DNA from: Rudaea sp. 3F27F6
GTDB lineage: Bacteria; Pseudomonadota; Gammaproteobacteria; Xanthomonadales; Rhodanobacteraceae
DNA: 64,000 nucleotides
NCBI RefSeq assembly: GCF_005503555.1
Contig: NZ_SCNG01000001.1
Coordinates: 434,001-498,000, forward strand
Reading direction: 5' to 3'
Shown: one piece after another, positions 57,107 to 62,019 of the stretch
Layout of the letters: every line of letters starts with the position of its first letter
Position numbering within the stretch: the stretch's first letter is position 1
Position numbers and translations under genes: made by a program
The notes under the pieces: model-generated
Told to the model about the DNA's origin: nothing
The model's database searches: none
What the model saw: only the letters and a program-made list of their open reading frames with translations

Positions 57107-60100
57107 ATGTTGAGCGCCGCTCTCGTCATCGCTTCGGGCATTGTCTGGCTCGGCGTACTGTTCGCCGTCGCGGTCTACGGCGAGCGCCACCCGCGCGTGC
57201 TCGAACGGCGCTGGGCGATCGTCTACGCGCTTTCGCTCGCCGTGCACTGCACGTCGTGGACCTTCCTCGGCAACACGACGCAGGCGAGCCGCTCGGGCTG
57301 GTGGGTACCGCCGAATTTCGTCGGCGCGATCGCGATGTATATTTTTGGCATTACGATACTTTTTCGCCTCGTGCGCCTCGCGCGCGAACACAACTCCAGC
57401 TCACTCGCCGACCTGATCTCGACGCGGCTCGGGCGCAGCCCGGCGCTCAGCGCGCTGATCACTGCGGTCATGCTGCTCGGCATCCTGCCCTACATCGCGC
57501 TGCAGCTCAAAGCCGTCGCGATGAGTTTCACCACCATTCTTGGCGACCCGCGCGGTCTGACCGCCTGGCGCGACGGCGCGCTCTGGGTCGCGCTGTCGAT
57601 GGCACTGTTCGCGATCGCGTTCGGCACGCGGCGGTCGTCCGCCGTCGCGCACAACCGCGGCCTCGTTCTTGCGATCGCGTTCGAGTCGCTGTTCAAGCTC
57701 TTCGCGATGCTGGCGCTGACCAGCCTGCTGCTGACCGTGCCACTGCCGGACGCTGCCGCGGCGCCACCGCCGACGCACGATCTGACCGGATTCCCAAGCC
57801 TGATCGTGCTCGGCGCGCTCGCGATGTTCACCCTGCCGCACCAGTTCCATACCGGCGTGGTCGAATGCCGCGACGAGCGCCATCTGAATACCGCGCGCTG
57901 GCTGTTCCCGCTCTACATGGTGCTGATCTCGGTGCCGGCGCTGCCGCTCGCGCGGCTCGGCGACGCGCAGCTCGCCGCACGCGGAATACCGTCCGACCTC
58001 TACCTGCTCGCCCTGCCGCTCGCCCACGGCGAGCATGCGCTCGCCCTCACCGCCTTTCTCGGCGCACTGTCGGCCTCGACCTGCATGGTCGTCGTTGCCA
58101 CGCTCGCGCTGAGCCTGATGGTCGCGAATCATTTCATCGCGCCGTTGCGCCTGCGCGCGGGCTGGGGCCAGAACGAAGAGAACGACCTGCGCGGCGAAGT
58201 ACTCTGGCAGCGCCGCGTCGCCATCGTCGCGATCATCGCGCTTGCCTGGGCCTACAGCCGCATGATCTTCGACGACGCAGCGCTCGCCGACATCGGCGCG
58301 CTGTCGTTCTCCGCGCTCGCCGGCCTCGCGCCGGCGACCTGGGCGGCGCTGTACCGCCCACAGCTCGGCGCGCGCGCGGTGTTCGCCGGCCTAGCCGCCG
58401 GCACGCTCGTGTGGATGTATACCTTGCTGCCCAAGGTGCTCTTTCCACATCAGGCCTGGCTCGCACAGGGGCCGTTCGGCATCGAGCCGCTTGCGCCGAA
58501 CGCGTTGCTCGGCCTCGGCGGCTTCGGCGCGCTGACGCGCGCGGTGATCCTCGGCACGGCGACCAATATCCTGGTCATGGCGTCCGTCGCCCTGTTCGGC
58601 CGGCGGCCCGCGGCGATGCCGGAAGCGCATCCACTCGAATACCGCGAACTGCGCGCACTGGCGACGCGCTTTCTTTCCGACGAACGCGCACAAGGACTGA
58701 TCGGCAGCGCGCCCGCGGCCAAACCCGCCGACGCGGCAACGCTCGCCTCGGTCGAGCACGAACTCTCCGCCGTGATCGGCGCGTCGAGCGCACGCCTGCT
58801 GCTCGACGTCGCGCGCCGCGACCGGCGCCTGCAGCTCGATACCGTCGCAGCGATCGTCGACGAAGCGTCGGCCGATCTGCGCTTCAATCAACGCGTGCTG
58901 CTCGCCGCGCTCGAAAACATGAGCCAGGGCATTTGCGTGGTCGACGCCAAACTGCAGGTCGTCGCCTGGAACCGGCGCTACGCCGAACTGTTTCCCTATC
59001 CGCCCGGCCTGCTGCGCGTCGGCCGACCCGTCGAAGAATTGGCGCGCCACGCGATCGCCGCGGGCCTGAGCGGCGGCGTCGCGCTCGATCCCGTGCAGTT
59101 GGAGGCCGCGGTGCAACGCCGCCTCATGCACATGCGCCGCGGCACCGCGCATCTGTCCGAGCGCCGCTTTCCCGACGGCAGCGTGGTCGAGATCCGCGGC
59201 AATCCGATGCCGGGCGGCGGCTTCGTCGCCACCTTCACCGACGTCACCGAATTCCGCCGCGCCGCGCTCGCGCTCGAACGCGTCAATGAGACGCTCGAAG
59301 CGCGCGTCGCCGAGCGCACCGCCGAGCTCGAACGGGCCAGACATGCCGCAGAAGCCGCGAACGAAACCAAGACGCGCTTCCTCGCCGCGGTCAGCCACGA
59401 TCTGATGCAACCGCTGCACGCCGCGCAGTTGTTCGCCCACAGCCTCGCCGCGCGCGCCGACGACGACGGCCGCGTCACCGCGCGGCATCTTCATTCGTCG
59501 CTTGCCGCGACCGAGTCCCTGCTCGGCGGCCTGCTCGACATGGCGCGGCTCGACGCCGGCAAACTCGTTGCGCGCCCGCGCGCGTTCGCGCTCAACGAAC
59601 TGCTCGGCGCGCTCGCCGCCGAGTTCGGCGCACTCGCAAGCGAAAAGGGTCTCAAGCTGTGCCACGTGCCGACGCGCGCATGGGTGCGTTCGGACCCGCA
59701 CCTGCTGCGCCGCGTGCTGCAGAACTTTCTTTCCAATGCGTTGCGCCACGTCGAATCGGGACGCATCCTGCTCGGCTGCCGGCGCGCGGGCTCGAAGCTG
59801 CGCATCGAAGTCTGGGACACCGGCCCCGGTATCGCCGAAACCGAGACGGCATCGATCTTCGAGGAATTCCGCCGTGGCAGCCGCGCAAGCAACCAGGGCC
59901 TCGGACTCGGCCTCGCGATCGCCCAGCGCATGGCACGCCTGCTCGAACATAACTTGACCCTGCGTTCGCGCCTCGGCCGCGGCAGCGTGTTCGCCGTCAG
60001 CGTGCCGCGCAGCGCAGCGGCCTACGCCGCGGTCGCAAGCGCCGTGCCCGCAGCGGAAGGCGCATCGCCCTCCGACATGCCGAAAGGCACCGCGCTGATC

Positions 60101-60481
60101 GTCGACAACGAACCGCAAGCGCTTACCGCGCTGCGTACTCTGCTCGAACAATGGGGCTGGCGCGTACTCGCCGCGCCCGACACGCCACGTGCACTCGAAC
60201 TCGCGCGCGGCGAACGCGCCGACATCGCCATCCTCGATTACCACCTCGCCGGCGGCGACAACGGACTGGATTTGTACGCCAAGCTGCAAGACATGCTCGG
60301 GGACATTCCCGCCGCGATCCTCACCGCGGACCGCGATGCCGCACTGCGCCAGCGCGCGCTCGAACTCGGTCTGATGTTGCTCTACAAACCGTTGAAGCCG
60401 CTGGCGCTCAAGCAAGTGCTGAGACGGAGCGAAAGCGCGGGGGTGCGCTTTGTCGCGTCGGTGTTGACGCCGCAGGGGTAA
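57107..60481 (+). CDS. crbS: CrbS/MxtR-like hybrid histidine kinase with sodium-symporter (SSF) sensor
   Basis: An 1124-residue hybrid kinase. Residues 1-490 form an SSF (PutP-like) membrane domain of 12-13 segments, then a PAS-like domain (about 600-720, LAALENMSQGICVVD), a coiled linker, HisKA with His764 (LAAVSHDLMQPLHAA), HATPase (DTGPGIAETE, GLGLGLAIAQ) and a C-terminal receiver with Asp1044 (AILDYHLAGG). This is the CrbS/MxtR layout, which with LuxR-type CrbR/ErdR controls acetyl-CoA synthetase and acetate use. A matching LuxR-type regulator is convergent across the 692-bp repeat. The start ATG follows TATGCT by six bases. No acs gene is in the window. Confidence 0.9.
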   Translation: MLSAALVIASGIVWLGVLFAVAVYGERHPRVLERRWAIVYALSLAVHCTSWTFLGNTTQASRSGWWVPPNFVGAIAMYIFGITILFRLVRLAREHNSSSLADLISTRLGRSPALSALITAVMLLGILPYIALQLKAVAMSFTTILGDPRGLTAWRDGALWVALSMALFAIAFGTRRSSAVAHNRGLVLAIAFESLFKLFAMLALTSLLLTVPLPDAAAAPPPTHDLTGFPSLIVLGALAMFTLPHQFHTGVVECRDERHLNTARWLFPLYMVLISVPALPLARLGDAQLAARGIPSDLYLLALPLAHGEHALALTAFLGALSASTCMVVVATLALSLMVANHFIAPLRLRAGWGQNEENDLRGEVLWQRRVAIVAIIALAWAYSRMIFDDAALADIGALSFSALAGLAPATWAALYRPQLGARAVFAGLAAGTLVWMYTLLPKVLFPHQAWLAQGPFGIEPLAPNALLGLGGFGALTRAVILGTATNILVMASVALFGRRPAAMPEAHPLEYRELRALATRFLSDERAQGLIGSAPAAKPADAATLASVEHELSAVIGASSARLLLDVARRDRRLQLDTVAAIVDEASADLRFNQRVLLAALENMSQGICVVDAKLQVVAWNRRYAELFPYPPGLLRVGRPVEELARHAIAAGLSGGVALDPVQLEAAVQRRLMHMRRGTAHLSERRFPDGSVVEIRGNPMPGGGFVATFTDVTEFRRAALALERVNETLEARVAERTAELERARHAAEAANETKTRFLAAVSHDLMQPLHAAQLFAHSLAARADDDGRVTARHLHSSLAATESLLGGLLDMARLDAGKLVARPRAFALNELLGALAAEFGALASEKGLKLCHVPTRAWVRSDPHLLRRVLQNFLSNALRHVESGRILLGCRRAGSKLRIEVWDTGPGIAETETASIFEEFRRGSRASNQGLGLGLAIAQRMARLLEHNLTLRSRLGRGSVFAVSVPRSAAAYAAVASAVPAAEGASPSDMPKGTALIVDNEPQALTALRTLLEQWGWRVLAAPDTPRALELARGERADIAILDYHLAGGDNGLDLYAKLQDMLGDIPAAILTADRDAALRQRALELGLMLLYKPLKPLALKQVLRRSESAGVRFVASVLTPQG

Positions 60482-60499
60482 CTCGTACGCTTTTTTTCT

Positions 60500-61191
60500 C
60501 GTCATTCCCGCATGCTCTTAGCGGGAATCCAGCGACTTTGCTTTGGTTCTTTCTTGCCTTTAAGAGCAGAGCTTCCACTCGTCCTGCGGACGAGCGGGTC
60601 ACTTTCTTGTCACCAGCGACAAGAAAGTAACCAAAGAAACGCCGCCCCGGGAGCCGCGCTCGCAGCTTCGCTGCGAGTTCGCAAGGTCATGCCGGGGTTC
60701 GCTCGATGGACATCCCTGTCCATTCGCGAACTCGCGCGCATCCTGCGCGCGACCCTAAAGGGCGATTCCGTCATGCCCCCGCCGCGGCTGACGGGGACCC
60801 GAGATCAAGAGCAAAAAGAGCAAGAGCCAAGCGCGGGATGCCTAGCTCTCGCTCTGTCTTCGGCGCGCACGATGCGCGCTGCTTCGGCTTCTCCGGGTCC
60901 CCATTACATTGCGGCGGCAGCGGACGAAAAGGCCCGCAGGGTCGGCGCGATGGATCGCGCCGATTCCGCTATTGCACACGGATGTGCAATTAGCGGAACC
61001 CGGCCGTTGGCGCGGACCCGGAGCGCAGGATGCGCGTAGGGCGCAATGTTCTGGGGCGGCGTCTTTTGGTTACTTTTCTTCGCTGCTGAAGAAAAGTGAC
61101 CCGCTCGCCCAAAGGGCGAGTGGAAGCCTTTGCTCTTAAACCAAAAAAAGCAAAGTCGCTGGATTCCCGCTAAGAGCACGCGGGAATGACG
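60500..61191. repeat. 692-bp compound inverted repeat element
   Basis: Ends are exact complements (CGTCATTCCCGC ... GCGGGAATGACG). Arms of about 150 and 140 bp (60500-60649, 61052-61191) match with some gaps: ATTCCCGC-N9-GCGGGAAT hairpin, CAGCGACTTTGC, GCTTCCACTCG hairpin, GTCACTT stem, AGTAACCAAA and CGCCGCCCC, in mirror order. Between them are further palindromes, e.g. TTGCACA-N4-TGTGCAA, ATGGACA-N4-TGTCCAT, GCGCGCA-N3-TGCGCGC. No transposase or gene inside. It looks like a nested-hairpin non-coding element, perhaps a MITE-like or structured-RNA repeat. Whether other copies exist must be checked. Confidence 0.85.
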
Positions 61192-61269
61192 CGCATAAGC
61201 ATGAGCGGAATTTCCGCTTGACCGGCCCTCCGGCCGTAGAGAGTCACGGAAATAACCAGCTTAAAGAGC

Positions 61270-61291
61270 AAAAAAAGCGGCCGCAGGCCGC
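61270..61291 (-). terminator. Intrinsic terminator of the LuxR-type regulator gene
   Basis: On the minus strand stem GCGGCC/GGCCGC with a 3-nt loop is followed by TTTTTTT, 15 nt after the stop codon at 61306. Confidence 0.85.
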
Positions 61292-61305
61292 CCCACCCAC
61301 CAGAG

Positions 61306-61956
61306 TTATTTCTGTTGCAACCTGAGCCGTTGCAACACGACGCTCGCCTGCGTGCGATTGCGTACGCCGAGTTTCTCGAAGATCGCACTGACGTGTGCCT
61401 TGACCGTGCGCTCCTGGATGCCGAGCGAGTCGGCGATCTGTTTGTTGAGGCGGCCTTCGCCGATCTGCGCTAGCACGCGGAATTGTTGGCCTGTGAGGCG
61501 CGCAAGGCGCGCGGCGAGTTGCGTGTCGGCCGGGTCGCTCACGGTTTCGTCGAGCGTGTCGGCGAGTGCGGGCGGCAGCCAGCGGCCGCCGTCGAGGACG
61601 GTGCGGATCGCGCCGACGATTTCCGCCGGCGGTGTGCTTTTCGGTACGAAGCCGACCGCGCCGTGATCGAGCGCGCGGCGCACGACGCCGCCTTCTTCGG
61701 AACCGGAGACGACGAGGGTCGCCGCGGCGGGAAACTGCACGCGCAGCGCGGCGAGTCCGGTCAGTCCGTGGCTGTCGCGCATATGCAGGTCGAGCAGGAC
61801 GAGATCGGTCTCCGGTTCGGCGTCGAGCCGGGCGAAAACGCCGGCGAGATCGTCGGCTTCGGCGATCAGCGCATCGGGCTCTGCCTGCGCGACTGCGCTG
61901 CGCAGCGCGGCACGAAATAACGGATGGTCGTCGGCTATGAGGACACGCGTGCTCAT
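61306..61956 (-). CDS. crbR: CrbR/ErdR-like LuxR-family response regulator
   Basis: A 216-residue NarL/FixJ-type regulator. The receiver domain (residues 1-125, VLIADDHPLFRAAL, LLDLHMRD with phospho-acceptor Asp56, and VPKSTPPAEI with the conserved Lys) is followed by a LuxR-type HTH (about 150-212, LTGQQFRVLAQIGEGRLNKQIADSLGIQERTVKAHVSAIFEKLG). This matches AgmR/ErdR/CrbR proteins which pair with SSF-domain kinases such as the one convergent to it. ATG 61956 is used; TAGAGT lies 7 nt before it, suggesting a leaderless mRNA. Expected targets are acetate-use genes such as acs (not in the window). Confidence 0.9.
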   Translation of the reverse strand: MSTRVLIADDHPLFRAALRSAVAQAEPDALIAEADDLAGVFARLDAEPETDLVLLDLHMRDSHGLTGLAALRVQFPAAATLVVSGSEEGGVVRRALDHGAVGFVPKSTPPAEIVGAIRTVLDGGRWLPPALADTLDETVSDPADTQLAARLARLTGQQFRVLAQIGEGRLNKQIADSLGIQERTVKAHVSAIFEKLGVRNRTQASVVLQRLRLQQK

Positions 61957-62019
61957 CGCCCGCACTCTAGCAGTTCAGTGCAGGTCCGGGTTTAACGAAG
62001 CGCATGTTATCGTCGGCCG

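Follow-up and report, generated by a model that had tools for sequence, protein, structure and literature searches.

The window analysed here, a 64,000-nucleotide stretch of the genome of Rudaea sp. 3F27F6, contains a 706-base quasi-palindrome at 60493-61198, sited between two convergent genes. As a preliminary description of this DNA had it, the element is bordered by the end of a kinase gene at 60481 and the end of a response-regulator gene at 61306 (Table 1). The same description called the outer ends exact complements; they are nearly so, with one base in 33 differing, and its inverted-repeat arms and short local palindromes are present where it placed them. Three pairs of arms are 75-92% complementary, at 60493-60544/61147-61198 (52 nt, 92%), 60571-60605/61093-61127 (35 nt, 89%) and 60621-60648/61053-61080 (28 nt, 75%). 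Against its own minus strand, the element aligns from position 8 to 699 of its 706 bases with 70% identity, and the mirror therefore passes through the element's centre, beyond the arms alone. The outer ends (60500-60532 and 61159-61191) follow one 32-letter pattern, which matches the window twice, both times within the element, and has no match in 100 shuffles. Open frames on both strands contain the peptide MLLAGIQRLCF, as previously noticed, and we agree that the element is noncoding. None of the four frames tried matched Pfam, and their single NCBIfam match scored far under the threshold; a protein-coding origin was accordingly rejected.

Table 1. Features of the element and its flanks (positions in the window)
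Feature	Position	Strand	Remarks
Hybrid histidine kinase gene (flanking)	57107..60481	+	CrbS-like in the preliminary description
Left outer CGTC-tagged REP	60500..60532	+	CGTC head, ATTCCCGC...GCGGGAAT stem, CCA tail; as defined in passages of PMC3733652
L module, outward strand	60573..60800	-	fold z -6.84
L module hairpin H1	60576..60597	-	edges by eye
L module hairpin H2	60597..60632	-	inverted-repeat search and fold
L module multibranched core	60643..60800	-	covariance model R1, 135.7 bits
ACANGGATGT, CsrA-consensus-like loop, helix P6, L module	60710..60719	-	
Variable central spacer	60801..60894	no strand	
Terminator-like hairpin in central spacer	60855-60817	-	
Further hairpin in central spacer	about 60863-60879		
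R module, outward strand	60895..61125	+	fold z -7.27
R module multibranched core	60895..61057	+	covariance model R1, 160 bits
ACANGGATGT, CsrA-consensus-like loop, helix P6, R module	60976..60985	+	
R module hairpin H2	61068..61101	+	inverted-repeat search and fold
R module hairpin H1	61100..61122	+	edges by eye
Right outer CGTC-tagged REP	61159..61191	-	
Terminator-like site between regulator gene and element	61274..61294	-	
LuxR-type response regulator gene (flanking)	61306..61965	-	CrbR-like in the preliminary description

The unit is a pair of structured modules, and its nearly exact outer ends are CGTC-tagged REPs. From the centre outward, each module starts with GGGTCCCC, continues with a core whose closing stem is long, and finishes with two plain hairpins, H2 and then H1; the core comprises the inner hairpins P4, P5 and P6 and a side hairpin, P7. 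The L module and the reverse-complemented R module differ in their letters and fold alike. The central spacer varies among copies in both length and letters, and in one copy (L029) it carries eight tandem GAGCAAAAA units, possibly a strain-variable repeat. In the window's own genome (G000), the 33-bp REPs lie outside the H1 hairpins. At four of its loci (L022, L027, L030 and L066) a short hairpin-like unit (AACAGCC...GGGCTGGT) was seen by eye inside the CGTC REP, and the same unit recurs, also by eye, in other REP-like flanks.

Soil bacteria related to Xanthomonas carry dozens of copies of this repeat of about 700 bases, scattered downstream of their genes. The own genome contains at least 71 modules, arranged as 31 inverted pairs and 9 singles, a lower bound because 40 of 164 candidates were scored and one further half appeared later. 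Thirty near full-length copies, including the window's, are 80-90% identical to the window copy; to these are added one gene-split copy (L058) and nine half copies. Of 200 genomes searched from the order, which represent 69 genera, 37 genomes in 18 genera contain the core according to covariance model R1, the own genome counted. A phylum-wide sample returned it in 5 of 398 genomes, all five from the same order, under stricter filters and with few candidates scored per genome, so that absence there is no proof and copies were left uncounted. A pattern scan matched at least 80 stretches in Rudaea cellulosilytica and many Rhodanobacteraceae or Lysobacterales bins; among the matches listed, a few bins are labelled otherwise, such as Granulicella and Rhodospirillaceae (labels as given).

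Modules less than 400 bp apart face outward in 38 of 39 cases, across four genomes of four genera, and the gaps of close pairs are uniform (65-96 bp in R. cellulosilytica, G008; 103-139 bp in 17 of the 18 pairs of G170). Outward pairing is not a universal rule, since all three pairs seen in G047 face inward (C8:1201567/1201915, C1:2449330/2449727 and C1:402964/403416) and 10 of 10 modules examined in the congener G011 are without a close partner. In a tree of 97 cores (alignment A3, with 94 distinct rows, as some loci overlap), partner modules form two old types, and one clade unites 14 second halves from nine genomes and four genera with an SH-aLRT of 100. Left out of the 100 halves from which the fold alignment below was drawn were L038, L041-L043 and L052, which share only the outer hairpins, L051, which overlaps L036, and halves below 50 bits. 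In L041, L042, L043 and L052, all from bins of the own genus, the H2/H1 hairpins are common and the inner part differs, which suggests another repeat family that shares this outer part.

We quantified the fold using 38 cores from 12 genomes, aligned by MAFFT and not fitted to structure; alignment A1 holds 38 of 100 halves, nine from the own genome and all 29 from relatives. The consensus core has 39 pairs, 30 of which show double-sided changes. Its pairing is realised in 96% of cells, compared to 33-44% after sliding one side, a figure favoured by deriving the consensus from the same alignment; the covariation score is 0.50 versus 0.05-0.10 when slid, and the low slid values leave little room for such an effect. 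None of 500 shuffles reached any of five fold measures. Whichever strand is taken, both modules also fold better than every one of the 200 shuffled sequences tried (z from -6.84 to -7.32). The earlier suggestion of a structured RNA is supported in part, as to a covarying fold in each half, and the dispersed copies, together with the covariation, set aside its fallback of a purely local sequence whose stems do not covary. Template switching between hairpin arms, which would keep the stems complementary with no selection at all, would also generate double-sided changes, and the element is quasi-palindromic at two scales. Such a self-maintained quasi-palindrome is nevertheless very improbable: it leaves unexplained the conserved loops, the multibranch closing stems, the strand-biased G.U pairs and the recurrence of one architecture across several families of the order.

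Because the z-scores are similar on both strands, they cannot by themselves tell the strands apart. According to RNAalifold, the outward strand folds better than the opposite strand in both module types (-114 versus -100 for 30 L halves; -131 versus -114 for 27 R halves, with L003, L011 and L026 left out). When helices are scored as Watson-Crick-only, the single mismatches on the outward strand of the 71 own modules are 95 G.U, 9 A.C and 114 others, and those in 89 rows of other genomes are 119 G.U, 15 A.C and 262 others; the pattern is mirrored when the opposite strand is folded. The excess of G.U over A.C fits RNA and also single-stranded DNA. G.T pairs are tolerated in single-stranded DNA too, and consequently the mismatch test does not separate the two; a mutational strand bias could add to the excess. 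When the whole element (690-713 nt) is folded as its plus strand, a long hairpin between the halves is predicted to be preferred over the local folds in 9 of 10 copies tried, and folding during transcription could differ from this prediction. Rfam gave no match at E<=1 at the window locus and a best E of 0.05 at eight loci of other genomes, all below the gathering score, so that a known RNA family was rejected for the nine loci scanned.

While the stems covary, the apical loops stay conserved. Across 97 rows (94 distinct), the apical loop contains GGA in 93 rows for P6, in 80 for P5 (missing from 17) and in 50 for P7 (missing from 47). Counting P5 to P7 together, 43 rows have three GGA loops, 43 have two, 8 have one and 3 have none, which amounts to two or three loops in 86 of 97 rows. 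Typically the loop reads C[ANGGAT]G or C[AGGAT]G. Among 280 module hairpins of five or more pairs, 208 are capped by A(N)GGA loops; in the window as a whole, which includes the element itself, the two strands give 6 of 425 and 17 of 464, a background of 23 of 889. The 71 own modules (16.2 kb) contain ACANGGATGT 51 times on the outward strand and never on the opposite strand; the 234 kb of flank strands contain it a single time, and its only two occurrences in the window are one per module of the element.

According to passages of PMC4347634, the CsrA SELEX consensus is RUACARGGAUGU, in which ACA and GGA are invariant and GGA is preferred in hairpin loops. By sequence, the module loops resemble this CsrA/RsmA site, and each module typically offers several GGA hairpin loops that fit the consensus, as a CsrA-sequestering RNA does. 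The own genome has one csrA gene; csrA is widespread, and its presence therefore tests little. Nor are GGA loops a full proxy for binding, since the part of PMC7694677 that deals with RsmU, a Xanthomonas RsmA-binding 3'-UTR RNA, reports that it still bound RsmA with four predicted GGA motifs changed.

Placement was assigned at 40 loci by a purpose-made gene caller: 17 are flanked by convergent genes, 21 by tandem genes and 1 by divergent genes, with 1 untyped; the 42 gene pairs of the window divide into 7 convergent, 27 tandem and 8 divergent. Almost every typed locus (38 of 39) adjoins the 3' end of a gene, and where a full pair lies between tandem genes, it is closer to the 3' end of the upstream one at 14 of 15 loci. 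Single modules in tandem settings have no clear sense bias (12 sense to 9 antisense) by a crude purpose-made gene caller, which typed L218 as tandem though the regulator there is convergent; without L218 the count is 12 to 8. Between 60480 and 61310 we found no sigma-70-type promoter (0.1 expected) and six terminator-like sites (1.4 expected), the longest of which, with 16 pairs, is in the centre. One such site separates the regulator gene from the element, making read-through from that side doubtful; on the kinase side none was found ahead of the element, and for the window copy transcription should enter more easily from there.

These terminator-like sites argue partly against read-through and for a different role, in which the repeat is a REP/BIME-like 3'-end element that stabilises mRNA 3' ends or terminates transcription in both directions, with no part for CsrA. 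REPs are likewise found downstream of genes, as passages of PMC3733652 describe, the element's hairpins are stable on both strands, and in the own genome its ends are CGTC REPs. A 3'-end element, however, needs neither a strand preference nor a conserved GGA loop on two or three hairpins with covarying stems, and we consider this explanation quite unlikely.

The earlier notion of a MITE-like mobile unit has gained in two respects: the repeat is multicopy, and its presence varies at one orthologous site in the genus. At that site, R. cellulosilytica has no module and the stop codons of the kinase and regulator genes are 23 bp apart, G011 has one L-type module, and the window genome has a pair; the element has been gained or lost within the genus at this one site. 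The regulators of G008 and G011 are 84% identical to the window's and that of G002 85%, with no kinase found beside the G002 homologue; other regulator homologues are 48-65% identical and may not mark the same site. The 1.5-kb flanks of the regulator homologues in G001, G002, G003, G004, G012 and G013, and of the second G011 homologue, contain no module (best 17.2 bits).

The repeat is multicopy and noncoding and has inverted ends, as a MITE does, and the main rival to an RNA-based explanation is a non-autonomous transposon, a long MITE, whose modules would be distinct left and right ends that are folded as single-stranded DNA for some transposase. The GGA loops would then be transposase recognition sites, and their likeness to CsrA sites convergent. 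Such a transposon accounts for inverted pairs of two types kept across genera, including the 14-row clade from nine genomes, and for variable presence at the orthologous site; the mismatch bias is compatible with it as well, given the tolerance of G.T in single-stranded DNA. In L058 (G000:C8:1323300-1327700), moreover, a COQ7-family gene occupies the centre (1850-2470) between the L and R modules, and another COQ7 gene of the genome is at C8:1016467. Outward pairs with genes between them also occur three times in G026 and once in G049. The intervening genes of L090-L093 (G026 and G049), where outward modules are 1.7-3.6 kb apart, look ordinary, and that of L093 resembles by eye an S41 peptidase. 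Cargo between modules was rejected as a rule: only 4 of 8 neighbour pairs 400-5000 bp apart face outward, and all three gene-spanning pairs of G026 have both halves in one clade, so that chance or decay may explain gene-spanning pairs.

Several findings count against the transposon. Unpaired modules are frequent (9 of the 71 in G000, besides the partnerless modules of G011), the pairs of G047 face inward, no target-site duplication was evident by eye in 30 flanks, and the loop match to the CsrA site is left unexplained. A search of the own genome for Y1 transposases found one gene, whose surroundings to 1.5 kb contain neither a module nor a REP of this kind, and mobilisation by a RAYT was rejected on this ground. 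Phages gave no match and plasmids a single 53-nt match over the H2 hairpin, and both origins were set aside. That match, in plasmid NZ_AP023416.1 of the unrelated Vescimonas fastidiosa (743283-743332, 90.6%), is perhaps a generic hairpin. Overall, we judge a transposon of this kind somewhat unlikely.

We tentatively prefer another explanation, as possible rather than probable: the element would be a mobile intergenic repeat of the Lysobacterales whose outward module, when copied into read-through RNA, folds and presents loops that bind CsrA/RsmA, and whose copies together titrate this regulator. Two homologous, diverged modules of about 230 nt, usually an inverted and outward-facing pair, would have settled behind genes. 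Read-through from a flanking gene would copy one module as its functional, outward strand, and because the pair is inverted, a transcript from either side would hold one module as the folding strand. The resulting RNA would form the multibranched core with H2 and H1 after it, and CsrA/RsmA is predicted to bind its apical loops, which are ANGGAN or AGGAU with a closing C-G pair. Each copy would then be a 3'-UTR binding site that locally marks or stabilises the mRNA 3' end, and dozens of copies together would titrate CsrA/RsmA as a sponge. A broader proposal, which we regard as unlikely, is that these repeats are mobile decoy RNAs throughout the order, tens of 3'-UTR copies titrating CsrA/RsmA instead of a dedicated CsrB-type sRNA. 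Passages of PMC7694677 state that no CsrB, CsrC or RsmV/W/X/Y/Z homologue exists in any sequenced Xanthomonas genome.

Repeats between genes tend to be dismissed as clutter, and here one combines a covarying multibranched fold with the loop signature of a global regulator. If CsrA/RsmA binds these loops, mobile DNA has rewired a global post-transcriptional network, and a dispersed RsmA antagonist becomes testable; if it does not, a large family of structured nucleic acids still needs a partner.

We found no description of the element in open-licence PMC text, and its relation to known systems differs from part to part. The outer ends, and only these, have the CGTC head, short palindrome, CCA-type tail and multiple copies that passages of PMC3733652 give for the CGTC-tagged REP family, and both are found downstream of genes; the pattern matches the own genome 63 times, versus 0 for a reversed control. 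Within the own genus such REPs lie close to 15 of 35 modules, and in other genera to 2 of 62; they form only the outer edge of an element whose conserved unit is the module of about 230 nt. BIMEs and REPINs, as portrayed in parts of PMC2817692 and PMC3116915, are also intergenic inverted pairs in many copies; they are built from a 20-40-bp REP, whereas the module is several times longer, multibranched and not a REP, and the Y1 gene of G000 is unlinked to it, unlike the RAYT-linked units of REPINs.

In Neisseria, the dRS3/NIME mosaics consist of short ATTCCC...GGGAAT repeats bounding longer intergenic units, and the element may be likened to them, in that short repeats bound a longer unit. The sRNAs of the CsrB/RsmX/Y/Z type sequester CsrA through repeated hairpins with A(N)GGA loops. 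The modules share such hairpins with these sRNAs as presented in passages of PMC7694677, but the element occurs in tens of dispersed copies, with no promoter found and no Rfam match at the nine loci scanned. RsmU of Xanthomonas campestris, an RsmA-binding 3'-UTR RNA from the same order, is 117 nt long and confined to one locus according to the same passages, in contrast to the dispersed element; identity with RsmU is not supported, because around comEA R1 scored no more than 11.1 bits in any of seven carriers from two genera, the comEA site being assumed to be that of RsmU. From its sequence, we would file the element as a paired, structured and partly REP-bounded repeat with putative CsrA-type loops.
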